This document shows, one piece after another, positions 7,175-31,733 of a stretch of DNA of 32,399 nt; position 1 is the first letter of the stretch; each line of letters opens with the position of its first letter. A model generated the notes under the pieces. That model was not told the DNA's origin and did not search any database. It saw only the letters and a program-made list of their open reading frames with translations. Origin of the DNA: a virus; IMG/VR virus record IMGVR_UViG_3300029319_000256, positions 1-32,399 of that record. The stretch is one strand, 5' to 3'. Position numbers and translations under genes: made by a program.

Positions 7175-7203
7175 ACAATTAATTAATTATATAATATTTT
7201 ATT

Positions 7204-8403
7204 ATGGCTAAAAAAAATGAAGCAACAGAACCTACTGTTGAACAACCAAAAGTTGACAACGAAGTAGAAAAAATTAAAGTAAAAAAGAAGTTAAAGAAAA
7301 CCAAACCGCAAGAAGACACTGTTAAAGTTGATTTGAAAGAATTGGCTAAAAAAGCAGAGGACATTGTAAAGGTAGATTTAAAACAACCAGCTGAAGACAT
7401 TAAGGCTCCAGAAGCAGAAGTTAAAGAAGAAGAAAAGCAAAAGGTTGAAGAGCCTAAAGCAGAGGTTGAAGAAACACCGGTAATAGAGTTAGAAGAAATA
7501 AAAGAAGAACCTAAGGTAGAAGAACCAGTTAAAGTTGAAGAACCTATAGTAGCACCTGAAAAACCTACTATAGATTTACCAGAAAACGTTAACAAGCTTT
7601 TAGACTTCATGAAGGACACTGGTGGAGATATAAACGATTACGTAAGATTAAATATGGATTATTCTGAATTAGATAACCATACCTTACTTAAAGAGTATTA
7701 CAAAACAACTAAACCACATCTAAACTCAGAAGAAGTAGATTTTTTAATGGAAGATACTTTTTCTTTTGACGAAGAGTTAGATGATGAGAAAGATATTAGA
7801 AGAAAAAAACTAGCGCTAAAAGAGCAAGTTGCTAACGCTAGAAACCACTTAGACGGGTTAAAGTCTAAATACTATGAAGATATTAAAGCTGGAAGCAAAT
7901 TAACAAACGAACAGCAGAAGGCAATTGATTTCTTCAATAGATACAACAAAGAGTCTGAGGCTGAACAAAAAGCATTAGAAAGATCTAGGTCTGCATTTCA
8001 ACAAAAAACAGACAGTGTTTTTAACGACGATTTCAAAGGTTTTGAATATAATGTCGGTGATAAAAGATTTAGGTTTAATGTTAAAGATGTAAACAAAGTA
8101 AAGGAATCACAAAGTGACATTAACAATTTTGTCAAGAAGTTCTTGAACAATGAAAATTTAATGGAAGACGGTGTTGGTTACCACAAGTCTATGTTTACAG
8201 CTATGAACGCTGATGCTGTAGCTAAGCATTTTTACGAACAAGGTAAGGCTGATGCTTTGAAAGAAAGTATTGCTAAATCCAAAAACGTTAGTATGGACCC
8301 TAGACAATCTCACTCAGGTGAAATACAAGCTGGGGGAATAAAAGTAAGGGCGCTTGGAGAAGATGTTAATGACTTTAAGTTTAAAATTAAAAGAAAACAA
8401 TAA
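7204..8403 (+). CDS. Capsid scaffolding protein
   Basis: A 399-aa protein between portal and major capsid protein. Residues 1-125 are low complexity: Lys/Glu/Val/Pro with repeated KVEEP/KVDLK units, likely disordered. Residues about 135-190 hold an acidic helical part (GGDINDYVRLNMDY ... SEEVDFLMEDTF), followed by long charged helices. The C-terminal tail GGIKVRALGEDVNDFKFKIKRKQ is basic; scaffold proteins use such a C-terminal basic helix/strand to contact coat protein. No protease motif is visible, so a separate maturation protease is not supported. Function is inferred from position and composition, which is strong evidence in this gene order. Confidence 0.8.
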   Translation: MAKKNEATEPTVEQPKVDNEVEKIKVKKKLKKTKPQEDTVKVDLKELAKKAEDIVKVDLKQPAEDIKAPEAEVKEEEKQKVEEPKAEVEETPVIELEEIKEEPKVEEPVKVEEPIVAPEKPTIDLPENVNKLLDFMKDTGGDINDYVRLNMDYSELDNHTLLKEYYKTTKPHLNSEEVDFLMEDTFSFDEELDDEKDIRRKKLALKEQVANARNHLDGLKSKYYEDIKAGSKLTNEQQKAIDFFNRYNKESEAEQKALERSRSAFQQKTDSVFNDDFKGFEYNVGDKRFRFNVKDVNKVKESQSDINNFVKKFLNNENLMEDGVGYHKSMFTAMNADAVAKHFYEQGKADALKESIAKSKNVSMDPRQSHSGEIQAGGIKVRALGEDVNDFKFKIKRKQ

Positions 8404-8424
8404 CTAAATTAAAAATTAAAAATT
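8404..8424 (+). promoter_or_regulatory. A/T-only leader of the major capsid gene
   Basis: The leader contains a direct repeat of TTAAAAA and no Shine-Dalgarno sequence before ATG 8425. Since the following gene must be the most highly translated in the genome, an SD-free A/T leader here is the clearest sign that the host ribosome does not depend on SD pairing, as in Bacteroidetes. Confidence 0.5.
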
Positions 8425-9888
8425 ATGGCAATTAATCCTGGTAATAATTTGAACAGTGTGCCTGCTCCAGTAAAGCAGACATTATCTGGAAATTATATCG
8501 ATTTTACAGCGTCCGGTACAAATGGATGGGCGCAACAATACCTGCCTGACTTGATGGAAAAAGAAGCTGAGGTTTTTGGAAACAGAACTATCTCAGGATT
8601 TTTATCTCAAGTTGGAGCAGAAGAGTCTATGACTTCTGACCAAGTTATTTGGTCTGAGCAAGGTAGACTACACTTATCTTACAAAGGTACAGTAAACAAC
8701 ACTACTTCGGTAGTAACAATTACATCTGATATTGACGGTGACACTAGTGTTACTAGTGGTAACCACGGTGTTAGATTAAATGATCAAGTTATAGTAGCTA
8801 CTGCTGAAGGAGCTATTAAATGTTTCGTTACAGCTATTTCAACTGACAATGTTACTTGTAAGCCTTACGAGGTTCAAAACATTGATGACGACGCTGCTTT
8901 TGGAACTGGTACTTCTGATGCTTGTACTTTACTTGTTTTTGGTTCTGAGTACGCTAAAGGAACTGATGGTCAAGGTGGTCACGCTTCTGGTGCTAAGGCT
9001 ATAACTCCTACGTTCAAGTCTTTCTCTAACAAACCAGTTATCATGAAAGATTACTACGAAATTTCTGGATCTGACGCATCTGCAATTGGTTGGGTTGAAA
9101 TTTCTGGTGAAGATGGACAATCAGGTTACTTATGGTACTTAAAAGCTGAGGGTGATACTAGACAAAGATTTACTGACTACTTAGAAATGACTATGATGGA
9201 AGCTGTTAAAGGTGTTTCTGGTTCTTCTGATGTAGATGGTACTGATGGTATAGGAACTGAGTTTGGTACTCAAGGTTTATTTGACGCTATTGAAGATAGA
9301 GGTAATATAACTACTGGTGTAACTGGTGTAAACGCTGCTACTGACTTAGCTGAGTTCGATGCTATATTAGCTGAATTTGACAATCAAGGTGCTATCGAAG
9401 AAAACATGTTATTCATAAATAGAGCTACATCTCTTGCTTTTGACGATATGTTAGCTTCAATGAACTCTTACGGAGCTGGAGGTACTTCTTACGGAGTATT
9501 CGACAACGAAGAAGATATGGCACTTAACTTAGGTTTCTCTGGATTTAGAAGAGGTTCTTATGATTTCTATAAGTCTGACTTTAAATACCTAAATGACAAA
9601 GCTACTAGAGGTAGTATTAATGACAGAAATGTTATATCTCCAGTTAGAGGTGTTATTATACCAGCTGGTGTATCATCTGTGTACGACCAAACTTTAGGTA
9701 AAAACTTAAAGAGACCATTCTTACACGTTAGATATAGAGCTTCTCAAACTGATGACAGAAGATTAAAAACTTGGGTTACTGGTTCTGTTGGAGCTGTTAC
9801 ATCTGACTTAGATGCAATGCAAGTTCACTACTTATCTGAAAGATGTTTAGTTACTCAAGGTGCTAACAACTTTATGATAATGAAGTAA
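8425..9888 (+). CDS. Major capsid protein
   Basis: A 487-aa protein directly after the scaffold and before a strong terminator, the usual setting for the major coat protein. The N-terminal part has WAQQYLPDLMEKEAEVFGNR and GAEESMTSDQVIWSEQGRLH. Residues 116-172 form an inserted beta module (VRLNDQVIVAT... to LLVFG) that may project from the capsid surface. The middle part has helical EAVKGVSG and an acidic DLAEFDAILAEFDNQGAIEE spine-like region; the end contains LKTWVTGSVGA. This agrees with an HK97-type fold in the broad sense. Codon use is noticeably smoother and slightly more GC-rich than the neighbours, as expected for a highly expressed gene. Confidence 0.9.
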   Translation: MAINPGNNLNSVPAPVKQTLSGNYIDFTASGTNGWAQQYLPDLMEKEAEVFGNRTISGFLSQVGAEESMTSDQVIWSEQGRLHLSYKGTVNNTTSVVTITSDIDGDTSVTSGNHGVRLNDQVIVATAEGAIKCFVTAISTDNVTCKPYEVQNIDDDAAFGTGTSDACTLLVFGSEYAKGTDGQGGHASGAKAITPTFKSFSNKPVIMKDYYEISGSDASAIGWVEISGEDGQSGYLWYLKAEGDTRQRFTDYLEMTMMEAVKGVSGSSDVDGTDGIGTEFGTQGLFDAIEDRGNITTGVTGVNAATDLAEFDAILAEFDNQGAIEENMLFINRATSLAFDDMLASMNSYGAGGTSYGVFDNEEDMALNLGFSGFRRGSYDFYKSDFKYLNDKATRGSINDRNVISPVRGVIIPAGVSSVYDQTLGKNLKRPFLHVRYRASQTDDRRLKTWVTGSVGAVTSDLDAMQVHYLSERCLVTQGANNFMIMK

Positions 9889-9900
9889 ACACTTTATATT

Positions 9901-9930
9901 AAAAGACCGGGGCTTCGGCCTCGGCCTTTT
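9901..9930 (+). terminator. Intrinsic terminator after major capsid gene
   Basis: A 13-bp stem (left arm 9901-9913, right arm 9918-9930) has one A-C mismatch and one G-T wobble, closed by a C(TTCG)G loop, the very stable UUCG tetraloop. The right arm ends in TTTT and is followed by ATTTTATTAATTTTATT. The GC-rich stem stands out in the A/T-rich surroundings. It sits 12 bases after the coat protein stop, so it likely ends or attenuates the head operon and protects the 3' end of the capsid message. Confidence 0.9.
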
Positions 9931-9959
9931 ATTTTATTAATTTTATTATATATTATATT

Positions 9960-10763
9960 ATGGCAAAAAAGAAACAAACTAAAAAGGTAGAGGTACCTGT
10001 TGTTGAAACACCAATTGTTGAAACACCAAAACCTAAAAAAGATACTTGGGAAATAAAAGATAGAAATTATTATTTAGTTGGCGGTAAAGAACCTTTGTCT
10101 TATCAAATAAGATCTTCTAATATTTATTGGTTTGACGAAGAAAAAGGTTATGAAAGAGAGTTAAAATATACTTCTAACCAAAGAACTCCATTTGTTGACG
10201 AAATGAAAGGTGAACACAGATTAGAACATATTGTTTTTAGAAGTGGTGCACTGTTCGTTCCTAGAGAAAAAACTGTTTTACAAAAACTACTATCTTTATA
10301 TCACCCACATAGAGACAAAATATTTAAAGAGCATAAACCTGCAAAAATAGCTGAGACACAATTAGATTGGTTAGAATTTGAAGTTGCTGCAATGAACGCG
10401 GCTAATAACCTAGATATTGATATGGCAGAAGCTGTTATGCGTGTAGAATTAGGTTCTGAAGTATCTAAGATGAGTTCTAAGGAACTTAAACGTGATTTAC
10501 TACTATTTGCTAAGAAAAAGCCTAAACTATTCTTAGAATTAGTTACTGATGAAAACGTGCAGCTTAGAAACTTTGGTATTAGAGCTACAGAAAGTAATAT
10601 AATTAATCTATCACAAGATCAAAGAACATTTACTTGGACTTCTACTGGTAGAAAATTATTTACAGTTCCTTTTGATGAGCATCCATATTCAGCATTAGCT
10701 GCTTGGTTTAGAACTGACGAAGGGATGGAAATATACAACAATATAGAGAAAAGATTAAAATAA
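9960..10763 (+). CDS. Conserved phage structural protein, helical C-terminus
   Basis: A 267-aa protein between the coat gene and the ring proteins. The first 28 residues are Lys/Val/Pro/Thr-rich with a VETP repeat and look disordered. The next part includes YELKYTSNQRTPFVDEM-like beta segments and FRSGALFVPREKTVLQKLLSLYHPH. The C-terminal third (about 175-267) is helical with SKELKRDLLLFAKKKPKLFLELV then a small beta hairpin (TFTWTSTGRKLFTVP) and a final helix. A similar winged-helix-like tail (KxFLELLxDxxxxxRxxIxxA...) is found in conserved proteins of several large phages. The exact role is unknown; a head-completion or structural role is inferred from position. Confidence 0.5.
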   Translation: MAKKKQTKKVEVPVVETPIVETPKPKKDTWEIKDRNYYLVGGKEPLSYQIRSSNIYWFDEEKGYERELKYTSNQRTPFVDEMKGEHRLEHIVFRSGALFVPREKTVLQKLLSLYHPHRDKIFKEHKPAKIAETQLDWLEFEVAAMNAANNLDIDMAEAVMRVELGSEVSKMSSKELKRDLLLFAKKKPKLFLELVTDENVQLRNFGIRATESNIINLSQDQRTFTWTSTGRKLFTVPFDEHPYSALAAWFRTDEGMEIYNNIEKRLK

Positions 10764-10769
10764 TCAAAC

Positions 10770-10806
10770 TGTAGAGCGGTCGCCCTGCGGGGCGATCGTA
10801 ACTACA
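10770..10806 (+). other. GC-rich hairpin just before the ring-protein gene
   Basis: The arms CGGTCGCCC (10777-10785) and GGGCGATCG (10790-10798) pair through 9 bp with one G-T wobble around a TGCG loop. Outer arms TGTAG (10770-10774) and CTACA (10802-10806) add 5 bp beyond small internal bulges. It is followed by AATAAAAAAATATT, not a T tract, so it is not a standard intrinsic terminator on this strand. The hairpin ends 13 bases before ATG 10820 and could control message stability, processing or translation. Confidence 0.65.
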
Positions 10807-10819
10807 ATAAAAAAATATT

Positions 10820-11539
10820 ATGGCGATAAGTATAGATACGGTACATCAAAGAGTTTTGGCTTTAGCCAACAAAGAACAAAGAGGTTATATAACACCTCAA
10901 GAATTTAACTTATTTGCTAATCAAGCGCAAAGAGAAATATTTGAACAATATTTTTATGAATTAAATCAATTTGCTAGATTACAACAAAACAGCTATGAAT
11001 ATTCTAATATACCAGATATATTAAAAGAAAAAATAGCTGTATTTGAAAAGTTCCATATAGACATGTCTGCGGTATCAGGTTCTACCTGTACATTACCTAC
11101 AGACGTTTATAGATTAGGAACAGTTTTTTACAACAATGGTACTGATAGCTTAATAGTAGAAAAAGTAGAAAAGAAAGAACTACAGAGAATGAACCAAGCT
11201 GCCCTGTACAAGCCTAGACAAGCAAGACCTTTGTACGTAAGAAAAAATGCTACGCAGATAGTAATATACCCTGAATCTGCAACTCCTTCATTTTCCACAT
11301 CAAACATAAATTGTCATTACGTAGCTAAGCCATCTACCGTTAAATGGGGCTCTGTAATCGTAAATGAAAAAGCTTTATACAATTCAACTACTAGTACAAA
11401 CTTTGAGCTACACGAAAGCGAAGAGAATACTCTAGTAATAAAAATATTAGAACTAGCAGGTGTAATTATAAAACAACAGGATTTAACTACGTTTGCTACA
11501 AACAAAGACACTATAACAGAAACTAAAGAAAAACAATAA
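10820..11539 (+). CDS. Probable head-tail connector / ring protein
   Basis: A 239-aa protein with helical N-terminus VHQRVLALANKEQRGYITPQEF then NLFANQAQREIFEQYFYELN, followed by beta segments (STCTLPTDVYRLGTVFYNNG, YVRKNATQIVIYPESA) and a helical end. The style (a helix bundle with Tyr/Phe/Gln and a beta sandwich) is that of the connector ring proteins placed between portal and tail in podoviruses. Small proteins starting with almost the same VLALANKEQRGYITPQEFN motif are frequent in marine phage genomes, from memory. No enzyme motif is present. The next gene is a second adaptor, so a two-ring neck is likely. Confidence 0.6.
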   Translation: MAISIDTVHQRVLALANKEQRGYITPQEFNLFANQAQREIFEQYFYELNQFARLQQNSYEYSNIPDILKEKIAVFEKFHIDMSAVSGSTCTLPTDVYRLGTVFYNNGTDSLIVEKVEKKELQRMNQAALYKPRQARPLYVRKNATQIVIYPESATPSFSTSNINCHYVAKPSTVKWGSVIVNEKALYNSTTSTNFELHESEENTLVIKILELAGVIIKQQDLTTFATNKDTITETKEKQ

Positions 11540-11542
11540 AGC

Positions 11543-12439
11543 ATGCCTACTAATTATTTATTAAACGAAACACAAGAAAATTACTATGACAACGTAAGTG
11601 ACGATTATGGTAATTATCAGTTTACATCTTTAACAGATATTATAAATCAATTTATGCTAGCTTATGTTGGTGAAGAAAAAATAATTCCTAGAGCTAAAAG
11701 AGCTGATGTAGCTTTTCACGCACAAAGAGCTATGCAGGAGTTGTCGTTTGATACTTTTAAATCTGTTAAATCACAAGAAATAGAAATACCACCATCTTTA
11801 ACAATGACACTTCCTCAGGACTATGTTAATTACGTTAAGATTACTTTTTCAGATAGTTCTGGTATAGAACATGTTATTTATCCAGCTATCAAAACTTCTA
11901 ATCCATTTGCAATATCACAAGCAGCAGATGGTAGTTATAATCATGATGGTACTAATTTAACAGAACAAGATGCTACTGATCACTTGTCAGATACATGGAC
12001 TAAGTACAAAGCACAAACGCCTTCAGAAAATAATCAAGATGATTACGAAGACGATATGTATTGGCCTAATGAAGGTGGTAGACTTGGGTTAGATCCAGCT
12101 CACGCACAAGTAAACGGTAGTTTTTACATTGATGAGTTACAAGGTAAGATACACTTTAGTTCAAACATAAGTGGTAAGACGGTTATATTAAAATACATAA
12201 GTGATGGGTTGGGAACTGAAGAAGAATTAAAAGTACATAAGTTTGCGGAAGAAGCTATGTATAAGCATATAGCCTATGGAGTGCTTTCTACTAGAGCTAA
12301 CACGCCAGAGGTTTTAGTAGCAAGATTTAAAAAAGAAAGGTTTGCTGAAACTAGAAAAGCTAAACTTAGGTTATCTAACATTAAAATAGAAGAAATTACA
12401 CAGATACTACGAGGTAAATCTAAACATATAAAACACTAA
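11543..12439 (+). CDS. Probable head-tail adaptor / neck protein
   Basis: A 298-aa protein starting three bases after the previous stop. It contains FTSLTDIINQFMLAYVGEEK, then IIPRAKRADVAFHAQRAMQELSFDT, then QEIEIPPSLTMTLPQDYVNYVKITFSD, and finally a helical part (HKFAEEAMYKHIAYGVLSTR) and a basic C-terminus. The combination of helical bundle, proline-bearing beta strand IEIPPSLTM(T)LPQDYVNYV and helical tail resembles tail-tube/neck adaptors of Bacteroidetes podoviruses. It is located between the ring protein and the giant tail hub, supporting a neck role. Molecular detail is inferred. Confidence 0.6.
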   Translation: MPTNYLLNETQENYYDNVSDDYGNYQFTSLTDIINQFMLAYVGEEKIIPRAKRADVAFHAQRAMQELSFDTFKSVKSQEIEIPPSLTMTLPQDYVNYVKITFSDSSGIEHVIYPAIKTSNPFAISQAADGSYNHDGTNLTEQDATDHLSDTWTKYKAQTPSENNQDDYEDDMYWPNEGGRLGLDPAHAQVNGSFYIDELQGKIHFSSNISGKTVILKYISDGLGTEEELKVHKFAEEAMYKHIAYGVLSTRANTPEVLVARFKKERFAETRKAKLRLSNIKIEEITQILRGKSKHIKH

Positions 12440-19866: not shown

Positions 19867-20748
19867 ATGTACAAGCAAAAAGGATCAACATTTTACAACG
19901 ATTTAAAAGCACCATTTAAAGCAAAGGGTGGCGTAAGTCCAATGAAGAGTTTAGGCCAAGGTATTGGACAAATCATAGGGGCTTATGGCGCTAAGAAAAG
20001 AGCTAAAAGCGAATTGGTTGGAGCGAAAGCAGAAGAAGAGCAAGCAAGACAAGCTTATATGGATATGGATTTTTCTAATCCTTATGCTAACATGGAGAAC
20101 ACTGCGGAGGACTTAACTGTTAATCAACAGGCAGCTAATTTAGCTAAACAACAGTTTCAACAATCGCAAGCTAACATTTTAGGCTCAATGCAACAGACTG
20201 GTGGAGGTTTTAATGCTGGTAATATACAAGCTCTAGTTGGAGCTGGTCAACAAGCAGCAGCGGCTACAGCGGCAGACATAGGAAAACAAGAACAAGCTAA
20301 TCAACAAGCAGCGGCACGGCAAGCAGCTCAAAACCAAGCTGCTGCAAGAAAAGGAGCGGCACAAGCTCAAGAAGCAAAAAGAGGTCAAACAGAAACGTTG
20401 TTTGGTATGGCTACGCAAAGATTAGGAGCGGCGGAAGCAGCAGATGCAGAAGCTAGAGCTGCTATGAGTGAGGGTATAGGTAACGTTGTAGGTGGAACGG
20501 TAGATATAGCAGCTAAAGCAGCTATGTCAGATGTTAGATTAAAAGAAAACATTAAGCACACTGGATATTCTAAGTCTGGAATACCTATGTATGAGTTTAA
20601 ATACAAGGGATGTGATACAGTTTGGTCAGGTGCAATGGCTCAAGATTTAATTAATTTAGGTAGACATGACGCTGTTGAATTGATGGACAATGGTTACTAT
20701 GCTGTTGACTACAATGCAATAGATGTTAACATGCTACTTTGTAAATAA
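19867..20748 (+). CDS. T7 gp14-like internal protein with S74 chaperone domain
   Basis: A 293-aa protein. Residues 25-215 are Gln/Ala-rich helix (NQQAANLAKQQFQQSQANIL, GNIQALVGAGQQAAAATAAD) with a GGGFNAGN break, the composition of T7 gp14-like ejection proteins. From S221 the sequence is SDVRLKENIKHTGYSKSGIP then MYEFKYKG, GAMAQDLINLGRHDAVEL and YYAVDYNAIDV. This is a short S74 intramolecular chaperone/auto-peptidase domain. S221 and K226 have the Ser-x4-Lys spacing of the known catalytic dyad of endosialidase-type S74 domains, so cleavage would release a 73-aa piece. The neighbours are two further ejection-type genes. The ejection role is inferred; the S74 signature is seen directly. Confidence 0.7.
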   Translation: MYKQKGSTFYNDLKAPFKAKGGVSPMKSLGQGIGQIIGAYGAKKRAKSELVGAKAEEEQARQAYMDMDFSNPYANMENTAEDLTVNQQAANLAKQQFQQSQANILGSMQQTGGGFNAGNIQALVGAGQQAAAATAADIGKQEQANQQAAARQAAQNQAAARKGAAQAQEAKRGQTETLFGMATQRLGAAEAADAEARAAMSEGIGNVVGGTVDIAAKAAMSDVRLKENIKHTGYSKSGIPMYEFKYKGCDTVWSGAMAQDLINLGRHDAVELMDNGYYAVDYNAIDVNMLLCK

Positions 20749-20754
20749 AATAAT

Positions 20755-22338
20755 ATGGCGGTAAATAAAGAACTATTAGAAATAGCTAGCGCAAGAGCTT
20801 CAGCTCGTAAACCAAATATGAAGTTTGAGGGACTTCAAAGAGCTGACGATACTTTAAATGATTACTTTGATTATAAGATACAAAAGAAAAGAGAACAACA
20901 AGATCATGAAGATAAGCTTAGAAGACAAAAAGAATTAAGAGAAGATGACTCTGAATATCAAGACTATTTAAAGACACAAGAAACTTTAGAAGAAGTAAAA
21001 AATCCTAATAACTCTCCTTTGGCTTATAACGCTGGGCTAGTGGCTGCTGCTAAAGATCTTTATCAACAAAGAAGATATGGTAACAAAAAACTAGGTGAAG
21101 CGCTAGGAAAAGCAGGTGAAGCTATAGATGGTAGTATAGAGGATTATTTTAACGAAAAAGAACTAGCAAAAGAAACTGCTGAAGAAGAAGCTAGATTAGC
21201 AGAAGAAAAAGCACAAAAAGAAAAAGATAGACAGACGCAAGTTTTAGATTCTTATATAATAAAGTCTGGAGAAAACAATATAAGTCAACACGGTACAGAC
21301 ATGTACAATAGTGTTCAAGATCAAATGTATGATTTAAAAAATCAATACTTAGAAGCTTATAATATGGAAGACGGGCCTGAGAAAAATAGGCTTATGAATG
21401 ACATAAAAATAAAAATGCAAGGATTAGACCAAAACCTTACGTTGCATAGTACTCATTTACAGGCTTATAAAAACAGTATAGAGAACGATGCTTATTCTAG
21501 TGTAATGGAAGGCACGGACACTAAAAATTTAATGGACGCTTATTTTACACAGGGATCAACAGTTCAATACCAAGGTAAAGAATACAACTTTGAAAAAGCT
21601 GTAGATGCTAGTGGTGTAAAAATGGTTTTAACAGACCCTGTTACAAACGAGCAAATATTGATAGATCCAAAAGAACAGTTTGCTAGCACTAACATGTTTG
21701 CTAAAACAAATGGTAAGGCTATGAATAATGTTTTAGATTCTTTACGAAAAACAGCTGCTAAAGGCGGTAGTGAAACGTTGAGTCAAGTAACAAATGTAAT
21801 GAGCACTTTGTTGAAAGATAAAAATGAATTAGTATCTTACGCTAATGATGCTATACCTGGAAGAGGTAAAAGCATGCGTGATGATTTTAACGAGATGTTT
21901 CCTAATGGTATAGAAGACAAGGATGGTAATATGATACCTGTTGCAGACGTGTTTAACCCAAACTCTGCTTGGTTTAAACAAAACAAAGGTGAAGATATAC
22001 TTAGAGATTTAACTGTGGATTATTATACTCGTATAGCGATAAATGGTTTTAACAGTTACGCTACTAAAAATGCTAAAATAGTAGGTATAGAAGGTTCTGA
22101 CAATTTAGGTATAAACAATTACAGCGAAACTACTTTGGGTATTAGCAAAGAAGAGGGTAACAAGTTTAGAAAATGGGTTAATACTAATTATCCTGAATAT
22201 GCTAAAGAAATAAATTTAGATGAAGAAGGTCCAATGAATAATTCATACATACAAACAGCTTGGCAAAAGTACGGGCAAGAATACCAGATGATGGTACAGT
22301 ATGATGAGTACGAAGACATGATAAATAAATATCTATAA
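20755..22338 (+). CDS. Probable internal virion (gp15-like) protein
   Basis: A 527-aa, highly charged, mostly helical protein without cysteine or membrane segment. Residues about 30-75 and 125-165 have coiled-coil composition (KIQKKREQQDHEDKLRRQKE; AKETAEEEARLAEEKAQKEK). The C-terminal half has LRDLTVDYYTRIAINGFNSY and GISKEEGNKFRKWVNTNYPE. It lies 6 bases after the gp14-like gene and 8 bases before the giant gene, occupying the gp15 slot of a T7-like gp14-gp15-gp16 ejection cassette. By analogy it would be packed in the capsid core and form part of the trans-envelope channel. I see no sequence-level proof of homology. Confidence 0.5.
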   Translation: MAVNKELLEIASARASARKPNMKFEGLQRADDTLNDYFDYKIQKKREQQDHEDKLRRQKELREDDSEYQDYLKTQETLEEVKNPNNSPLAYNAGLVAAAKDLYQQRRYGNKKLGEALGKAGEAIDGSIEDYFNEKELAKETAEEEARLAEEKAQKEKDRQTQVLDSYIIKSGENNISQHGTDMYNSVQDQMYDLKNQYLEAYNMEDGPEKNRLMNDIKIKMQGLDQNLTLHSTHLQAYKNSIENDAYSSVMEGTDTKNLMDAYFTQGSTVQYQGKEYNFEKAVDASGVKMVLTDPVTNEQILIDPKEQFASTNMFAKTNGKAMNNVLDSLRKTAAKGGSETLSQVTNVMSTLLKDKNELVSYANDAIPGRGKSMRDDFNEMFPNGIEDKDGNMIPVADVFNPNSAWFKQNKGEDILRDLTVDYYTRIAINGFNSYATKNAKIVGIEGSDNLGINNYSETTLGISKEEGNKFRKWVNTNYPEYAKEINLDEEGPMNNSYIQTAWQKYGQEYQMMVQYDEYEDMINKYL

Positions 22339-22346
22339 AATAAAAT

Positions 22347-25300
22347 ATGAATAAAGAGCAGTTAAAAAAAGTTGTTAAAAAAATGATGGCAGCAGGCGAA
22401 CCTGATGCTAAGATAAAGCGTTTTATTAAAAGCTCTGCTTTTAAACAACGTGTAGACGGAATTAGTGGGGCAGATGTGTCTCCAACATATTCTAGCGAAA
22501 GAGATAACTTTGCTGCTAATGAAGAATATAATTACTACGAACAAAAAGAAAAAGAAAGAGATGCGATACGAGAAAATTATCCACAAACTTTAGGTAATGT
22601 TATTACTTTTGGCGTAGGTAGTAGTGAAATGGTTGGTAGTATATACAAAAAAGCAAAAGATGTTGTTGGGTCTAAAAGTGTTAGTGGTGCAATGACTTCA
22701 TTGAAAAAAGACAATGAATATCTTGACAGAAAAAGAAACCAAGATACCTTTAAACTTGTTAACAAGCTTGACGATGGAGAAATTACTCAAGAGCAATATG
22801 ACTTAGAGATAGAAAAAATAAATTATATTTACGACAATGCTACTGGACCTAGAGATCATTATCATTGGTTACAAAAAGCAAACAATTTATTTAATACAGA
22901 AATAAGTGATGAAACAAAAAAAGTTAGAGATGATGCGTTAAACGCAAGCGATAAAGAATATAAGCAGAAAAATAAAGAATCGTTTGCCTCTGCCGATACT
23001 AATAAAGATGGAGACATAGATGAACAAGAGCAGTTTTATTATAACGCTAGAGAAGAAGCTACAGTTTTTCTTAATGAAGGTATAGATAGTTATTTAAAAA
23101 GAGATATTGATGCTGAGATCGAGGCTGAATCTAAAAAACGATTAATGGATCCAACGGGTTATCTTGAAACTAGAAAACCACTATATGAAACGGATGCTAC
23201 TTCTACTTATATAGATCCAATGTATAGTGATGAAGAAGATTATGAAGAAGAGGAATATGAAGAGGAAGAGCCTATAATAAATATTGACAGTAATAGTATT
23301 TCTCCAGTTTTAACTCAGCTGTTAATACAAAAATATGCTGGTGAAAACGGAGTAAGCATGAAAGACGCTTACAACACTTATGTAGAAGCGGGTGAAGAAG
23401 ATTACGAAGGAGAAGATCCTTTTGCAAGTGTTAGGCATCTTATGACTGACACAAGTGGTAACTCACCTTCTGGAGATGGAGCTCTTATAGATTATTTAAA
23501 CGATATAAAATTAAATGATCCTGAATTTTTTAAACGTTTTAATGAGGCTTATATATCTTCTTCTTCAGACAATTATGCTAGACAAGAGATGTCACAGAAA
23601 CTTGGTATTGAATTAACTGAGAAGGCTGGATTTTTTCTTGGAGAGGGTACAACGACTTTATTTGGAGATCCAGATGAAGTAAAAGATACCGAGAAAAAAA
23701 TTAGAGAGTTTGAAAGAGATCAAGAAAAAGCAGAGGCAGAAACTAGTGAAATAAATGAAATGCTTGAATCTTCTATTGAAACTACAAACAGTTTGCTTGA
23801 AGATTTAGAAAACACAACAGAAGGTACTGTCACTGTTAATGGTAAGGTGTTAGAAGACGAAAATGGAAACGAAATTATGTTTCCTAACAACGCGAGAATA
23901 CAAAACCTTTTAGACGAAAACGAAAAAATATTAAAAGGTAAATACAAAACTCAAGAAGAGGTTGACGAGGCCAATAAAAAAATAAATGAAAACAATGCTG
24001 AGGTTGATAATATATTATCTAGTTATAAAAACAAAGTAGAAAACTACAATACCAGTAGAGAAACTTCTTTAAAGTTATCTAACACATTAAGAAAAAATAC
24101 AGAAGAACAGCTTTCTGCTGCAAGAAACTGGAATGATTATAAAGCCATATATGAAATGCAGGATCAAAGGTACACTACTTTTGGACAATTTGGTGCCGCA
24201 ACTACAGGATCGGTTTTAAATTTAGTTTCTGCTGCTGACGAAATTATTGTTGGCGGTAACCATGACATACTACAGGCTGCTGGTATCGTAGAGGGTCCTT
24301 ATGATCCATGGGTTGGTAGACAGTGGGTAGACCAATACAGAGATAAGTTTAGAAACATGGCTGATCCTGGCACTAATTATTATAGTTACAAAACAGGTGA
24401 TTTTAATAGTTTCGCGTTTGAACGTAGTAATAGGACAATGAGAATGATAGGTGACATGGTACCTATGTTAGCAGCTACATATCTTAGTGGAGGTTCTGCT
24501 ACACCTACGCTTATGGGTATGACAATACCAACTGTGGCCGTAATAGGTACACAATCAATAGGCGGTGATTTAGAAAGAACTAGATTAGAAATGAAAAATA
24601 ATCCACTTGTTCATTACGCTGGATGGCAAAGATATACCTCTGCTATTGTACATGGAGCTACAGAAATACTTTCAGAAAGATTACTTGTTGGTCAAGTAGG
24701 TAGAGTAGCTGATAATTTAATGGTAGATGATTTTGCTAAAGAAGGTGTAAAGTCTTGGGTAAGAAGTACTTTAAACTTAGGTACTAGAGGGGTATTGGAT
24801 GCTGTTCAAGAGGGTTTTGGTGAAGGTGTAAACACTTACACTCAAAACTTAAGTGATAAGTGGTTGCTAGGTAAAGACGTAGATTTAATGGACGGTGTAA
24901 GCGAATCTTTTATAGATGGTTTTTTAGTTTCCGGTGCTATAACTACACCAATGTTACTTAAAAACACTACTAATCACTTAATACCTAATACGTTACAAAA
25001 CAAATTAAATGATAATACCACGGAGTTATTACAGTTAGAAAAAGAACTTTTAGATAATAGATATAAATATAACGAAGATGGTAGTGTAAAACAAAATGTA
25101 AAGTCAACTTTAAGCTCAGAAAGGATAGCGCAAATAGAATCTAGAATGAACGAGCTTGTAAATGAAAACACAGATCTTTTTGAAACTCAACTCAAAGGAA
25201 GTGTTGGCATGACTCAGGCAGAAAAGAGAGAGCTGTTAAACATTAGAACTCAACAACATAGGTTAAAATCAGAAGCAAACACTATAAACAAAGAAACTGG

Positions 25301-28300
25301 TTATACTAAAAAAGAAAAGAAAGAAAAACTAGATGAAATAAAATATAGATACAGTAAGTTAGAAAAGCAAAAAAATGATATATTACAATCTGACAAACGT
25401 ACTGATGAGGAAAAAATAGCTGATTACGAAAAATACAAACTAAGTGTAAAAAATAAAATAGATAGTTATAGAAATAGAAAAGACCGAGAAAGAGATGTAG
25501 AGAGTATAGAATTTGAAACCACAGAAGCGGTTGAGGAATATATGAACGAGCAAAATCTTTATGAAGACGCTTATATTCAAGCTGAAGTTGATGCTGCAAA
25601 ACGCCAGTTGCAACAAAACAAAGATTTTCGTAGCAGTGATACACAGACTAGACAGCACTCTGAACTTTCTCCAGAAAGAAGAGCTCAGTTAGAAAATATA
25701 GTAAGACAAGGAGAATCTATATTAGAAAATAATTTAAAACAATCTAAAGAAGGTGCTGGACAATTTGGTTTTATACACACAAAACAAAATGGTGATTTAG
25801 TATTTGGTATTAACAAACAGAGTAGTTTATCTGCAACAGGTAGGGTAACAACCGCTGCTCATGAATTTTTACACAGTGTTTTATTTAAAACAATAGGTGG
25901 TGATACTAAAATACAAAACGCGTTAGGAAACGCTCTGCAAGAATATGTAGGTGATAAAAAAGGTGTTACTGGTATGGAAACATTTCGTCAAAGAATGGAG
26001 CCGTATATATATAGAGGAAAACAAGGAGAAGTACTAGGTGTAGAACAAAACTATTCAGAAGAACTTATAACTATCATGTCTGAGTCTATATTAGATGGTA
26101 GTTTAAAATTTAACGAAGGGTTTTTTACTAAAGTAGGAGATGGATTAAGAAGATTTTTTCAAAGAAGATTTCCTAATACTTTAGGTAAAATAAAGTTTGA
26201 TAGTGGTAGAGATGTATATAATTTTATAAAAGACTATAATGACAGTATAGAAAAAAATTATACTAACAAAGCTATTGAAGATGTAATGGTCAGAGGTGCC
26301 GATGGTAAACTAATACCAGGTGTTGATCCTTTGTTAAAGCAAAAGTCTGGTTACACTTACTCAAGAGCCAACCAGTTAGATATGATGCTTAACAAGTATG
26401 GCGATAAAATTAGTTTAGTACAAAATGCTATAGCACAAAATGAAAATGGTGATTTAGTTGAAGACCTACAACAGTCTGAGCTAGGCCAAGGTATGGGTGG
26501 TATAATAGAGAGTATAACTAAAAGACTTTATGATGGTATACCTAAATCAGAGGTAAACAAAATAGATCTTACTAGAAAAGATTACAAAGACGCTTTGTTA
26601 ACCGAAGCTGTAGAAATGATAACCAAAGAGTACGATCCTGCTAAACAAAAACTTGATAAATTTGTGAGTAGTAGATTAAACCTTAGAGCAAACGATCTAG
26701 CGCAAAGACTAGGTGTTCCACAAGAGTTTACTACAGAACTAGGTGCTGCTAAAGACGTAACAACAGCAGAAGATAAAGTGCAGCAAGAAACTATTGATAC
26801 TAAAAAACTAGAAGACAGATTAACTAAAGTAGACCCTGAACTTAAAAAAGAACTAGCTGTTATAAAAAATAATATTATAAAACAAATAGAAGCTAACCCT
26901 AATTTATACAAAGATAAAAACTACAAGTCTTTAAAAAATTTAGTTAGCAATGAAGTTCAAAGAATGTTTGGTATAGCCCCTAAAGTAGGTAACTTAACTA
27001 AGGGTGATGTTAGAAACGCTCAAATGTTTATTAATAAACATGCTGATGCTTTGGTCGCTATGCTTCCTCAAGGCTTTACTTCAGATCAAACTTCTACTGG
27101 TGTACAAAATGTTTTATTAAAAGAATTTTATAACAAACGTTCTGTAAGAGCTAAGACAGGACCAGGTTTACAAGTACAAGTTAAAAAACCTAATTTAAAC
27201 GTTAACGATTTTACTAGCGTGTTTGGTATAACAGAAAGAGGTAAACCTAATCTTTATAAAAAAGAAAGTAACACTAGCGCTAGAATAAAAGCTTTAGTTG
27301 AGCAAACAGGTAAGACTATAACTAACCAAACTATTAGAGAACACTTACAAGAAACTAATCAACCTGTAGATTTAATAGCAAGACTAGGAGACGGTAAAAG
27401 TAAATTCATGTTTTCAAAAGGTAAGGCTTTAAACGAAATGTTACAGAAAGACGGTGCTAAAGCTGCTGGTGTAATAGAAAGTTTATTTGATCTTACTAAC
27501 AACGATATACATTATTACGGTGGTAACATGACTGCTTTAGCTAATAATCAGTTGGCTGGGTTGTTGCCTCAAAACGAAATAAATAAAATAGCTAAAGACT
27601 TACAATCTTTATACGATTTAACAGTACCTAGTTATTTAGAAAGCTCTAACTTGTTTACGTCACCTACGCCACTAGGTTCGTTTGTAATAGATAAATATTT
27701 ACAATTAAACATTGAAGGTAGAGAGGGTTATGCTAGCTTGTTGAGTTTAACTGGTGAAAACTTTGTAGCGTTAAAAGGAAATAAAACAGCTCAAGAGTCG
27801 GCTAGAGCATCTATTAAATCTCTAGCTACTGAATTAGATAGAATACATGGTAAGGGTTTTGCGTTAAGAACTTTATATAGAACTATATCTGCTCCTTCAA
27901 AAATACAAGATGGAGAGTTTATACCTGTTGAACCTGGCGGTAATAAATTAAAGAAAAATCCTAATTGGAACCCAAGAAAAAAAGATGGAAAGCCTCAAGA
28001 CAATAGGTTAGGTTTAGCTACAAATGCAGTAGATGCTGCGTTATTGTTAGGGGCAGAGTTAGACGCCAATGGAAAACCTATAGGTTTACCAGAGTCTCCA
28101 AAAGGCACTAGTGATTACATGAAGGGTAGTTTAAATAGAATACCAGAAGCAAGTAAAAGACCTGGGTTTATAGAACGTCAACAACAAAATAACCAAGACA
28201 TAAGAAAAGTTATGGATGTTGTTAGAGATCTTTATCAAAATAAATTTATAAATGGTAACCAGGTTGTTTCTTTAATGGCAAACTTTAATGCTAACCAAGA

Positions 28301-31300
28301 AGGTATTACGAGAGCCTCTGCTATACTAGATTTTATTCCTGTAGATGATATAAACTACTCAAACAATAAGTTAAGGTTAGAGCACATGACACCTGCTTTA
28401 ACTACAAATTTATATGCTTTAAAATATATATTTGCAGATAAGACAACTTCTGAAGCAGCTAGAAAAGATTACAACGATATTATGGATAATTATCGTTTAG
28501 CTTATTTACCTGATGTTTATGATAAAATGGTAAACAAGTTTTACAAATCAACAATGCCTTTTTATTGGACTCCTGACGCTAGTGCTTTGTTAAGGTACTA
28601 TAATGCTGAGATGGCTGGTACTTTTGATTTACAAATGGAACAGTTGTCTACAGGAATAATTGTAGGACCAGAGTTAGCTACAGATAAAAAATTAATCAAG
28701 CAAGTTGAGAAAGGAAAACTAAATGCTATTAGCAAGTTATTAAACACTACTTTAACACAAGCCGCTTTAGATAAAGCAGGTATAGATTTAAATGAAGGTG
28801 CTAGAACAGCTGGGAAAGTATTTATGAATTCTAGAGCTATTAATGAGTCTACACCAAGTAGAGGTATGTCTGCTTTTGATTTTGACGAGACGTTAATTGA
28901 CAAAGGTGATAATACTATTATAGCTACCAAAGGTGACGATGTAGTAACTATAACATCTGGACAGTGGCCTTTACAAGGTCCTAAATATGCTGAGTTAGGT
29001 TATGAGTTTGATTTCAGTGACTTTATAAATGTTAGAGGTGGTGTTGAGGGCCCTCTAATGCAGAAGTTTAGAAACAGAATACAAAAGTATGGTATAGAAA
29101 ATAACTATATACTTACAGCTAGACCAGCAGAAGCAGCACCAGCAATTAAGGCTTGGTTAAAAACCCAAGGTATAGACATGCCTATAGAAAATATAACTGG
29201 TTTAGGTAATAGTACTGGTGAAGCAAAAGCTATGTGGATAGCTAATAAATTTGCAGAGGGTTACAACGATATATATTTTGTGGACGATGCCTTACCTAAT
29301 GTTGAAGCTGTTGCAGATATGATAGATCAGTTAGACATTAAAGGTAAGTCTGTTCAAGCTAAATTTAAGTTTAGTAGACAACTTAATCCAGAGATAAACA
29401 AAATAATAGAATCTACTAGACAGCAAAGTTTAGATTTGAATAGAATAATAGAGCAAACAAAAGGTGTTAAAGCAGAAGCTAGATATTCTGATGCTCAAGC
29501 TAGAATAAGAGGTAGCCAAAAAGATAGGTTTAGTATGTTTAAATTCTTTGTACCGCCTTCTGCAGAAGACTTTAAAGGTTTACTATATAGATTACTTTCA
29601 CCTGGTAAGTTAGGAGAACAACAAATGGCGTTTTTTAAGAAAGCACTATTTGATCCTTTTGCAAAAGGGTACACTTCTTTAAATAAAGCTAAACAAAACT
29701 TAGACGCTGGTTATAGAAATATATTAAAAGTTTTTCCTAGTGTAAAAAAATCTTTATCACAAACAGTCGAGGATACTAATTTTACTAATGATCAAGCTGT
29801 AAGAGTTTATTTATGGGATAAAAACAATGTAGAGGTACCCGGTTTATCTAAAAGAGATCAACAAACTTTAGTTAATCACGTTAAGAGTAATACTGATTTA
29901 TTATCTTTTGCCCAATCATTAGAAGGTTTGGTTAACTTAGATACTGGTTATCTAATACCTAATGAATATTGGTTAGTTGAAAGTACTAGCAGTGATATAC
30001 AAACTATAAACGCAGAGCTTAGTAGAGCAGACCACTTGTCAGAGTTTGTAAACAATAGAAAAGAAATGTTTGGTGAGTGGAAAGGACAAAGTTTAGATGG
30101 TGACATCATGAATAAACTTCAAGCAATATACGGTAATAATTATAGAGACGCTTTAGAAGATATACTTTGGCGTATGGAGTTTGGAACAAAGAGGGAAAAA
30201 GGAACTAATAAATTAGTAAATAAATTTAACAATTGGGCTAACCAATCAGTTGGTGCTATAATGTTCTTTAATATGAGATCTGCGTTGTTACAGACTATAT
30301 CTTCTGTTAACTTTATAAACTGGTCTGACAATAATCCGTTAAAAGCAGCGGCTGCATTTGCTAACCAAAAACAATTCTGGAAAGACTTCGGTATGATATT
30401 TAATTCTGACATGTTAAAGCAAAGGCGTGCTGGTAACCAAAGAGGTATCAATGAAGCTGAACTTGCTCAAGCAATTGCTGGTTCTAAAAACAAAGCTAAA
30501 GCAGCTTTAAACTGGTTGTTAACAAAAGGATTTTTACCTACACAAATAGCAGATAGTTTTGCTATTGCTTCTGGTGGCGCTACGTTTTATAGAAACAGAG
30601 TTAAATCATATTTAAAACAAGGATTAACACAACAGCAAGCAGAGTCACAAGCTTTTCAAGATTTCCAAGAAGTAACAGAGGAATCACAGCAGTCTTCAAG
30701 ACCTGATTTAATATCACAACAACAAGCTTCGCCACTAGGTAGATATATACTGGCTTTTAAAAACACACCTATGCAGTATGCTAGACTTATGAAAAAAGCC
30801 GTGTTAGATTTAGCTAACAATAGAGGTGATTTTAAAACTAACGTTAGTAAGATTATATATTATGGTATGGTTCAAAACTTAATATTTAACGGACTACAAG
30901 CTGCGTTAGGCGCTTTGATAGGTGATGACGACGAAGACAAAGACACTGAAACAAACAAAAGGATTATCAACGGTATGATTGATTCTGTTCTTGGTGGATT
31001 AGGATTTGGTGGTAATGTTATTATGACTGTAAAAAACTCTTTATTAGAATACTTAAAACAAAGAGAAAGAGGTTGGAACGCAGATCATACTTATACTATT
31101 TTGAAAATAATAGGTTTGTCTCCTACAATAGGTAGTAAACTAAGAAAAATATATTCAGGTATACAAACAGAAAAATTTAATAGCGAAGTAATAAATGAAA
31201 TGAGTTACTTTGACATTGACAACCCTGTTTACGAGGCTATAGCTAATGTTATATCTGGTGGTACTAATATACCTTTAGACAGACTTGTTAAAAAAGTAAA

Positions 31301-31733
31301 CAATGTTGATGCTGCTCTTACAGAAGAAATATCTACTATAGAAAGACTTGCCTTGTTAATGGGTTGGAATACTTGGGACTTAGGTATTGAAGACCAAGAT
31401 ATAATAGCTGTTGAAGAAGAAATAAAAGAAAGAAAAGACAAAGAGAGAAAAGAGAAAAACGAAAAGAAAAAAATAGAAAAGAAACAGCAACAACAAAAAG
31501 AAAACGAAGTAAAAGAAAAAGAAAATAAAGAAAAAGATGATGGTCGTTGTATAGCTATAACTAGTAGCGGTAGCAGATGTAAAAGAGAGGCTATATCAGA
31601 TGGTTATTGTACTGTGCACGCTAAAGTAGAGCAAGGAACTAAAGAGGTTCAGTGTAGTAAAATTAAATCTAATGGCGAAAGATGTAAGATGAAAACTATG
31701 GCTAAAAGTGGATTATGTTTTTATCATGATTAA
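22347..31733 (+). CDS. Giant polyvalent internal virion / DNA ejection protein
   Basis: A single uninterrupted 3128-aa frame. Visible parts in order: EF-hand loop DTNKDGDIDEQE (217-228); acidic tract (295-308); coiled coil (about 450-590); hydrophobic stretch from M700 (MIGDMVPMLAATYLSGGSAT), a likely membrane insert; long charged helices (960-1110); HEFLH zincin centre (1172-1176) with E1238/E1239 as candidate third ligand; a segment near 1425-1455 faintly like sigma region 2; HAD centre with D2178/D2180, T2257, K2294, D2313/D2314; a conserved helical block (about 2625-2870) with MFFNMRSALLQTISSVNFIN and ILAFKNTPMQYARLMKKA; Lys/Glu/Gln linker (3022-3065); two Cys3His motifs (3068-3091, 3103-3127). 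It sits in the gp16 slot of an ejection cassette. A polyvalent protein injected with DNA is the inference; individual activities are untested. Confidence 0.75.
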   Translation: MNKEQLKKVVKKMMAAGEPDAKIKRFIKSSAFKQRVDGISGADVSPTYSSERDNFAANEEYNYYEQKEKERDAIRENYPQTLGNVITFGVGSSEMVGSIYKKAKDVVGSKSVSGAMTSLKKDNEYLDRKRNQDTFKLVNKLDDGEITQEQYDLEIEKINYIYDNATGPRDHYHWLQKANNLFNTEISDETKKVRDDALNASDKEYKQKNKESFASADTNKDGDIDEQEQFYYNAREEATVFLNEGIDSYLKRDIDAEIEAESKKRLMDPTGYLETRKPLYETDATSTYIDPMYSDEEDYEEEEYEEEEPIINIDSNSISPVLTQLLIQKYAGENGVSMKDAYNTYVEAGEEDYEGEDPFASVRHLMTDTSGNSPSGDGALIDYLNDIKLNDPEFFKRFNEAYISSSSDNYARQEMSQKLGIELTEKAGFFLGEGTTTLFGDPDEVKDTEKKIREFERDQEKAEAETSEINEMLESSIETTNSLLEDLENTTEGTVTVNGKVLEDENGNEIMFPNNARIQNLLDENEKILKGKYKTQEEVDEANKKINENNAEVDNILSSYKNKVENYNTSRETSLKLSNTLRKNTEEQLSAARNWNDYKAIYEMQDQRYTTFGQFGAATTGSVLNLVSAADEIIVGGNHDILQAAGIVEGPYDPWVGRQWVDQYRDKFRNMADPGTNYYSYKTGDFNSFAFERSNRTMRMIGDMVPMLAATYLSGGSATPTLMGMTIPTVAVIGTQSIGGDLERTRLEMKNNPLVHYAGWQRYTSAIVHGATEILSERLLVGQVGRVADNLMVDDFAKEGVKSWVRSTLNLGTRGVLDAVQEGFGEGVNTYTQNLSDKWLLGKDVDLMDGVSESFIDGFLVSGAITTPMLLKNTTNHLIPNTLQNKLNDNTTELLQLEKELLDNRYKYNEDGSVKQNVKSTLSSERIAQIESRMNELVNENTDLFETQLKGSVGMTQAEKRELLNIRTQQHRLKSEANTINKETGYTKKEKKEKLDEIKYRYSKLEKQKNDILQSDKRTDEEKIADYEKYKLSVKNKIDSYRNRKDRERDVESIEFETTEAVEEYMNEQNLYEDAYIQAEVDAAKRQLQQNKDFRSSDTQTRQHSELSPERRAQLENIVRQGESILENNLKQSKEGAGQFGFIHTKQNGDLVFGINKQSSLSATGRVTTAAHEFLHSVLFKTIGGDTKIQNALGNALQEYVGDKKGVTGMETFRQRMEPYIYRGKQGEVLGVEQNYSEELITIMSESILDGSLKFNEGFFTKVGDGLRRFFQRRFPNTLGKIKFDSGRDVYNFIKDYNDSIEKNYTNKAIEDVMVRGADGKLIPGVDPLLKQKSGYTYSRANQLDMMLNKYGDKISLVQNAIAQNENGDLVEDLQQSELGQGMGGIIESITKRLYDGIPKSEVNKIDLTRKDYKDALLTEAVEMITKEYDPAKQKLDKFVSSRLNLRANDLAQRLGVPQEFTTELGAAKDVTTAEDKVQQETIDTKKLEDRLTKVDPELKKELAVIKNNIIKQIEANPNLYKDKNYKSLKNLVSNEVQRMFGIAPKVGNLTKGDVRNAQMFINKHADALVAMLPQGFTSDQTSTGVQNVLLKEFYNKRSVRAKTGPGLQVQVKKPNLNVNDFTSVFGITERGKPNLYKKESNTSARIKALVEQTGKTITNQTIREHLQETNQPVDLIARLGDGKSKFMFSKGKALNEMLQKDGAKAAGVIESLFDLTNNDIHYYGGNMTALANNQLAGLLPQNEINKIAKDLQSLYDLTVPSYLESSNLFTSPTPLGSFVIDKYLQLNIEGREGYASLLSLTGENFVALKGNKTAQESARASIKSLATELDRIHGKGFALRTLYRTISAPSKIQDGEFIPVEPGGNKLKKNPNWNPRKKDGKPQDNRLGLATNAVDAALLLGAELDANGKPIGLPESPKGTSDYMKGSLNRIPEASKRPGFIERQQQNNQDIRKVMDVVRDLYQNKFINGNQVVSLMANFNANQEGITRASAILDFIPVDDINYSNNKLRLEHMTPALTTNLYALKYIFADKTTSEAARKDYNDIMDNYRLAYLPDVYDKMVNKFYKSTMPFYWTPDASALLRYYNAEMAGTFDLQMEQLSTGIIVGPELATDKKLIKQVEKGKLNAISKLLNTTLTQAALDKAGIDLNEGARTAGKVFMNSRAINESTPSRGMSAFDFDETLIDKGDNTIIATKGDDVVTITSGQWPLQGPKYAELGYEFDFSDFINVRGGVEGPLMQKFRNRIQKYGIENNYILTARPAEAAPAIKAWLKTQGIDMPIENITGLGNSTGEAKAMWIANKFAEGYNDIYFVDDALPNVEAVADMIDQLDIKGKSVQAKFKFSRQLNPEINKIIESTRQQSLDLNRIIEQTKGVKAEARYSDAQARIRGSQKDRFSMFKFFVPPSAEDFKGLLYRLLSPGKLGEQQMAFFKKALFDPFAKGYTSLNKAKQNLDAGYRNILKVFPSVKKSLSQTVEDTNFTNDQAVRVYLWDKNNVEVPGLSKRDQQTLVNHVKSNTDLLSFAQSLEGLVNLDTGYLIPNEYWLVESTSSDIQTINAELSRADHLSEFVNNRKEMFGEWKGQSLDGDIMNKLQAIYGNNYRDALEDILWRMEFGTKREKGTNKLVNKFNNWANQSVGAIMFFNMRSALLQTISSVNFINWSDNNPLKAAAAFANQKQFWKDFGMIFNSDMLKQRRAGNQRGINEAELAQAIAGSKNKAKAALNWLLTKGFLPTQIADSFAIASGGATFYRNRVKSYLKQGLTQQQAESQAFQDFQEVTEESQQSSRPDLISQQQASPLGRYILAFKNTPMQYARLMKKAVLDLANNRGDFKTNVSKIIYYGMVQNLIFNGLQAALGALIGDDDEDKDTETNKRIINGMIDSVLGGLGFGGNVIMTVKNSLLEYLKQRERGWNADHTYTILKIIGLSPTIGSKLRKIYSGIQTEKFNSEVINEMSYFDIDNPVYEAIANVISGGTNIPLDRLVKKVNNVDAALTEEISTIERLALLMGWNTWDLGIEDQDIIAVEEEIKERKDKERKEKNEKKKIEKKQQQQKENEVKEKENKEKDDGRCIAITSSGSRCKREAISDGYCTVHAKVEQGTKEVQCSKIKSNGERCKMKTMAKSGLCFYHD

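Follow-up and report, generated by a model that had tools for sequence, protein, structure and literature searches.

The locus examined here raises the question of what role a virus might assign to a single protein of 3128 residues, whose gene takes up 29% of the available sequence, and whether such a protein stays with the particle or enters the host. The stretch of DNA analysed, referred to throughout as the window, is an IMG/VR record in full, comprising 32,399 bases with a GC content of 34%. The gene in question (positions 22347-31733, + strand) is an uninterrupted open reading frame with an ATG start, as proposed in the initial annotation, and all of the motifs listed there for its product, hereafter the giant, were located within the frame.

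Genomic context and gene order

The terminase, portal, capsid and tail genes of the window match PHROGs of virion proteins. The portal protein shares 53% identity with that of the podovirus ctfjg026, 45% with that of Maribacter phage Panino, 42% with those of the Flavobacterium elemo phages and 36% with those of Cellulophaga phages phi38:1 and phi40:1. On the strength of these identities to podoviruses the window phage, a marine virus, is classed as a podovirus with relatives among the cultured phages of Flavobacteriaceae, and its host most likely belongs to the Bacteroidetes. Start codons of the structural genes are preceded by A-rich leaders in which the Shine-Dalgarno motif is absent, a pattern that fits Bacteroidetes hosts. 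Elsewhere in the window, a protein encoded at positions 1720-2322 matches the PHROG for the co-chaperonin GroES (9e-17), and genes for GroES/GroEL are also present in the related cultured phages.

The giant is encoded downstream of the tail genes, behind gp14- and gp15-type genes, which is the position occupied by podovirus genes of the gp16 type. The gp14-slot gene (19867-20748, + strand) matches the PHROG DNA ejection protein phrog_4287 (E = 6e-12), in keeping with its earlier description as gp14-like, whereas the gp15-slot gene (20755-22338, + strand), encoding a 527-residue protein devoid of cysteine, has no family match. The assignment of the giant to the gp16 slot is borne out by the order of the last structural genes, which equals that of gp99-gp100-gp101 in phi40:1 and of gp20-19-18 in the elemo phages. 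Each of the three phi40:1 proteins is annotated from virion MS/MS and, by analogy with gp101, the giant is expected to be present in the virion.

The C-terminal end of the gp14-slot protein (residues ~218-293) resembles an S74-type intramolecular chaperone (SDVRLKENI...). The only two cysteines of this protein (residues 249 and 292) are inside the S74-like stretch, and a mature form minus the stretch would therefore be cysteine-free.

Relatives of the giant and the conserved C-terminal block

A scan of IMG/VR recovered 48 relatives of the giant, the complete ones ranging from ~2000 to 4134 residues. Pfam matched only DUF5763 at the C terminus and, weakly, an EF-hand, leaving the polyvalent-protein families unmatched. 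With residues 801-3128 as a tblastn query, nothing was found among named phages at 1e-3. The most constant part of the family is the conserved helical block that had been recognised previously, here delimited to residues 2363-3020 (29433-31406, + strand) and termed the C-block. All 48 relatives share it, mostly with 38-77% identity; in 47 it is part of the giant frame, and in one (L041) it is encoded by a separate frame downstream. The coding sequence of the L041 giant (5910-11926) breaks immediately upstream of the C-block into two frames that overlap; a natural fission was considered and rejected, since the sole cysteines of this giant fall at the junction, which points to a frameshift or an error in sequencing.

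Conversely, the region N-terminal to the C-block is highly variable. BLAST pieces of the variable regions (n=997) are nevertheless collinear save for one change of order, which concerns a single cassette; wholesale domain shuffling was accordingly discarded, and the family appears to evolve mainly by insertion and loss along a fixed domain order. Domain content thus varies over a shared core, with a kinase or another cassette inserted in some relatives and the HAD domain missing from others. In the giant of ctfjg026 (L055:741-12320), the closest named relative by portal, two HExxH motifs are present, but profile searches found no HAD domain and no C-block.

When a structural model of the HAD domain plus C-block was compared with the viral proteins of BFVD, 58 structure matches were obtained at E up to 0.001. 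Four close relatives ranked first, followed by proteins mostly of 10-15% identity with query TM-scores of ~0.35-0.56, several of which are annotated as polyvalent proteins, in agreement with the class suggested in the initial annotation. The C-block is also present in Gundel1_74 of Tenacibaculum phage Gundel_1, which is annotated as structural (profile E = 7e-12 in a 7-sequence search). The C-block sequence was not detectable by profile in phi40:1 gp101 or phi19:3 gp129, despite their occupying the same slot.

N-terminal and central regions

Among the N-terminal features, an EF-hand-like loop (DTNKDGDIDEQE) is present by motif match at residues 217-228 (22995-23030, + strand), where 0.025 such loops are expected per shuffled protein; the Pfam EF-hand_5 match is weak (E 0.26). 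A comparable loop exists at this place only in the two closest relatives (L001 and L002), and so the loop stands as a property of the giant while its standing as a feature of the whole family was rejected. The acidic tract was confirmed at residues 296-308 (23232-23270, + strand). What had been described as a hydrophobic stretch corresponds to a helical region at residues 700-900 (24444-25046, + strand), common to some relatives, which is mildly hydrophobic but, with 19-residue Kyte-Doolittle peaks of only ~1.1, is not a clear transmembrane segment.

Between the two putative enzyme domains, residues 1330-1700 (26334-27446) comprise two conserved and fairly well predicted domains, namely a helical domain at residues 1330-1480 (26334-26786, + strand) and a second at residues 1500-1700 (26844-27446, + strand). 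Neither belongs to a known family, a convincing Pfam or PDB match not being found for this region, and a profile search of the 1330-1480 alignment against PDB sequences gave chance matches only. A sigma-factor-like reading of residues 1330-1480, prompted by a YDP...R pattern that recalls sigma region 2, was dropped as neither Pfam nor PDB supported it.

The zincin-like domain

The zincin-like domain was assigned by alignment and modelling to residues 1135-1310 (25749-26276, + strand), with HEFLH at residues 1172-1176 and a third ligand, E1239, positioned 63 residues past the second histidine of that motif. H1172, E1173, H1176 and E1239 are invariant among 23 aligned sequences, and exactly one HExxH is found in 44 of the 48 relatives, against an expectation of 0.009 per shuffled protein. 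The peptidase domains found in polyvalent proteins are described with the same ligands, an HExxH followed by a glutamate (PMC5512222). In a model of residues 690-1700, HEFLH and E1239 are placed on helices behind a strand pair, an order of elements that is plausible in a model of mediocre quality (mean pLDDT 68). A structure search with this region against the PDB yielded no match, and the hits of a profile search with the zincin alignment against PDB sequences were at chance level. The zincin centre that was originally proposed is upheld with regard to its ligand pattern, the zincin fold being a tentative assignment. The giant of the cultured Flavobacterium phage elemoE (gp18), which occupies the same slot, also has a zincin-like domain (profile E = 6e-8 in a 12-sequence search).

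In polyvalent proteins, the peptidase domain has been proposed either to process its own chain, before or after delivery, or to attack host proteins (PMC5512222). For the domain described here, a candidate peptidase judging from its conserved residues, self-processing or release is probably the role.

The HAD-type domain and the kinase in its cap in relatives

A second catalytic centre, of the HAD phosphatase type, was assigned by alignment and modelling to residues 2173-2345 (28863-29381, + strand). Its four motifs, comprising the DxDxT residues of DFDET (2178-2182), T2257, K2294 and the aspartates D2313-D2314, are invariant in 27 aligned sequences, so that the giant has two unrelated predicted enzyme centres with invariant catalytic residues in one chain. 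Modelling of residues 2160-3025 (mean pLDDT 74) surrounded the motifs with strands and helices that follow a HAD-like order, in keeping with the HAD centre of the initial annotation. The highest-ranking PDB matches to this model include HAD structures (Ceg4, prob 0.94; MDP-1, 0.84; also BT2542, Lem4 and Eya2), although individually these are weak and none is significant alone, the best having an E of 0.22 (prob 0.94). Profile searching of the HAD alignment against PDB sequences produced chance matches only. Pfam DUF2608 matches 23 of the HAD members (best 4e-5), and the PHROG polynucleotide kinase phrog_415 matches 20 of the 27 (best 8e-7), with a further polynucleotide kinase group, PHROG 505, being matched also.

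In seven relatives (L013, L014, L021, L024, L028, L036 and L043) a P-loop kinase of ~180 residues is nested within the HAD domain. The insertion point is ~35 residues past HAD motif I, where HAD enzymes carry their cap, and corresponds to residues 2193-2217 of the giant (28923-28997, + strand). The nested kinase is matched by Pfam AAA_33 (down to 1.5e-14) and Zeta_toxin (1.8e-10), with the HAD family PF00702 aligning weakly over the same stretch, and small kinases of a similar kind occur as free-standing proteins in marine T4-like phages. The giant of the window has a plain HAD domain, in which the P-loop kinase motif is absent. A different cassette is present at the same place in the cap in L027, and a related one follows the HAD domain in L016; a GNAT reading of this cassette was abandoned, only PHROGs of unknown function being matched.

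The HAD domain may tentatively be regarded as a cytoplasmic phosphatase acting on nucleotides or nucleic-acid ends, a substrate class that is favoured because the domain has a kinase partner in relatives. Another reading, that it is a protein phosphatase effector directed at host proteins, takes its support from the structural matches, the best of which is the Legionella effector Ceg4 and which include MDP-1, a named phosphotyrosine phosphatase, as well as Eya2 and Lem4. However, folds do not fix substrates, and these matches are weak, whereas phrog_415 and the nested AAA_33 kinase indicate nucleotides or ends; we regard the protein phosphatase reading as unlikely.

A more specific version of the nucleic-acid reading would have the HAD domain, together with the kinase in relatives, form an end-healing unit that is delivered at entry to counter host nucleases cutting tRNA or DNA. 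The two PHROG polynucleotide kinase matches are consistent with this, as is the pairing of HAD with AAA_33, since T4 Pnkp is itself a HAD phosphatase and an AAA_33 kinase with the domains side by side. Set against these points, the RNA ligase PF09414 was not found in 24 related records (which are fragments), weakening a role in RNA repair; Zeta_toxin matches the nested kinase as well; and the giant itself has no kinase. End healing is hence a doubtful proposition, slightly less probable than the protein phosphatase role, and the broader assignment to nucleotides or nucleic-acid ends is retained below. In crAss001, a small protein annotated as a phosphoheptose isomerase, with HAD-like motifs, is encoded beside a P-loop polynucleotide kinase (gp60-gp61; L069:27579-28450), and the two may represent a phosphatase-kinase pair as separate genes.

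Exclusion of cysteine

The giant ends in the two Cys3His motifs initially described, which are of the zinc type. The first, at residues 3068-3091 (31548-31619, + strand), is matched by Pfam DUF5763 above the cut-off (E = 1e-7), and the second, at residues 3103-3127 (31653-31727, + strand), was recognised by its motif. All six cysteines of the protein are in these motifs. Residues 1-3067 (22347-31547, + strand) contain none, despite ~70 cysteines being predicted for the gene from its base composition. Similarly, in 42 non-redundant family members, counted with the last 80 residues left out, 9 of 117,397 residues are cysteine, as against 473 predicted at the rate of the window's other proteins; as the members are related, these counts are not independent. 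The product of the gene just upstream has 6 cysteines in 23,732 residues across the family. The slot proteins of phi40:1, elemoE, Gundel_1, Panino and phi19:3 have none, and that of ctfjg026 has one.

The same pattern was evident beyond this family. Ejection proteins of T7, P22, K1E, P-SSP7 and N4 contain 1 cysteine in 12,270 residues, as opposed to 83 in 13,353 residues for the other virion proteins of these five phages (Fisher p = 1e-22), a small sample picked by hand. In the RNA polymerase giants of crAss001, 5 cysteines occur in 6102 residues. Proteins injected by contractile-tailed phages, on the other hand, do contain cysteine (P1 DarB, 9; T4 Alt, 3; P1 DdrB, 2), as do other large virion proteins (the 1787-residue tail protein of the window, 4; elemo gp22, 4; N4 gp65, 11).

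The absence of cysteine could feasibly reflect base composition, shared descent or the long exposure of virions to oxygen, in which case it would be uninformative with respect to ejection. The genome is indeed AT-rich, the remaining virion proteins of the window are also lowish in cysteine (0.40%), and common ancestry links the family members. However, the number of cysteines predicted from base composition is far from zero, other virion proteins of the same genomes do have cysteine, and the unrelated ejection proteins of the five control phages behave alike where P1 DarB and T4 Alt do not, making such an explanation improbable. Cysteine exclusion thus supports ejection of the podovirus type for the giant, and does so independently of gene order. 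The use of cysteine absence as a criterion for ejection is proposed here and has not been published; in a narrow literature search, the absence was unmentioned in a review of ejection proteins and in a 2025 preprint on the N4 polymerase structure.

The cysteine pattern also bears upon the possibility that the giant is a structural or head-scaffold protein retained in the particle, with its enzymes serving assembly only (the peptidase in maturation, the HAD domain in an assembly step). The gene slot and the structural annotation of relatives would fit this, and some polyvalent peptidase domains act prior to packaging, as proposed for P1 DdrB (PMC5512222). Nevertheless, near-complete exclusion of cysteine is common to ejected proteins and not to the other large virion proteins that these genomes encode, and swappable enzymes at the HAD cap suit host-directed roles better. 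We therefore consider an assembly-only protein to be improbable.

Proposed role and significance

Taken together, the giant is likely to be the third and largest ejection protein, in the gp16 slot, of a Bacteroidetes podovirus, and a polyvalent one in which a C-block for delivery is combined with carried enzymes. The gene order shared with phi40:1, where the three products are annotated from virion MS/MS, and the structural annotation of elemo gp18 and Gundel1_74 lend support to the delivered-protein reading, and the giant is very probably ejected into the host with the viral DNA. The C-block, along with the gp14- and gp15-slot partners, would be responsible for delivery, from packaging inside the head to release through the tail and transit of the envelope, and the remainder of the chain would carry enzymes into the host. 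The zincin-like domain would probably act first, on its own chain or on a partner, after which the HAD domain would function in the cytoplasm, joined in the seven relatives by the kinase in its cap to give a kinase-phosphatase pair. The lack of cysteine may be explained by the passage of the chain through the oxidising periplasm and by its need to unfold and refold; the six cysteines that remain are confined to the terminal motifs, in which they would be shielded by bound metal.

Phage proteins that enter the host are usually recognised only through hard experiments, and the all but complete absence of cysteine from thousands of residues would provide a cheap marker of podovirus ejection proteins, including giants without known relatives. 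In the small sample considered here, it separates ejected proteins of podoviruses from those injected by contractile tails. We lean, if only somewhat, towards the view that the exclusion is general for podovirus proteins ejected through the periplasm, sufficiently so for new ones to be found from sequence, and that the HAD cap is a site for the insertion of enzymes, as with the kinase nested in the phosphatase, which leaves the delivery block untouched. In this group of marine phages, enzymes would then be swapped at a set position adjoining a delivery module that stays the same, and a HAD phosphatase-like domain can be added to the enzymes that polyvalent ejection proteins may carry.

Comparison with known systems

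The giant resembles the polyvalent proteins (Iyer et al. 2017, PMC5512222) in being a very large multidomain chain with a zincin-like hub and swappable enzymes, in its predicted delivery with DNA, and in the matches of its modelled HAD domain and C-block to annotated members. Giant polyvalent proteins, their zincin hubs and the zeta-like kinases within them have thus been described already (PMC5512222). It differs in matching no Pfam polyvalent-protein family and in the family having a HAD domain, with a kinase inside its cap in relatives. The main text of the 2017 survey mentions neither HAD nor haloacid dehalogenase, in line with the earlier suggestion that the combination of HAD, HExxH and tandem Cys/His ends may be undescribed; descriptions of the HAD domain, the cap-nested kinase and the cysteine rule were likewise not found. 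Cysteine exclusion, the cap insertion in relatives and the confinement of the EF-hand loop to the closest relatives had not been noted in the initial annotation.

In seven relatives, the presence of a HAD phosphatase and an AAA_33-type kinase in one chain, together with the PHROG polynucleotide kinase matches, recalls T4 Pnkp, the difference being that the kinase is inside the HAD cap as opposed to side by side with the phosphatase, and that the window's protein has no kinase. The products of phi40:1 gp101 and elemo gp18 share with the giant its slot, the lack of cysteine and a structural annotation (from MS/MS in the case of gp101), and elemo gp18 shares the zincin-like domain also, although the HAD domain and C-block are not detectable by profile in either.

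The gp16 proteins of T7 and P22 likewise follow gp14- and gp15-type genes and have no cysteine, but are 2.4 to 5 times shorter, and no sequence similarity is claimed. T7 gp16 has a lytic transglycosylase domain, which was not found in the giant; it is largely helical and is thought to refold on passage (PMC8954989). In N4, the virion RNA polymerase gp50 is packed and ejected with gp51 and gp52, smaller partners encoded alongside (PMC12633501), and contains a zincin-like domain (PMC5512222). Whereas N4 infects a different host phylum, and the giant has a HAD-type domain in place of the RNA polymerase domain, which was not found, the likeness extends to size (~3500 residues for gp50), to the two smaller neighbours and to the absence of cysteine from gp50, gp51 and gp52.
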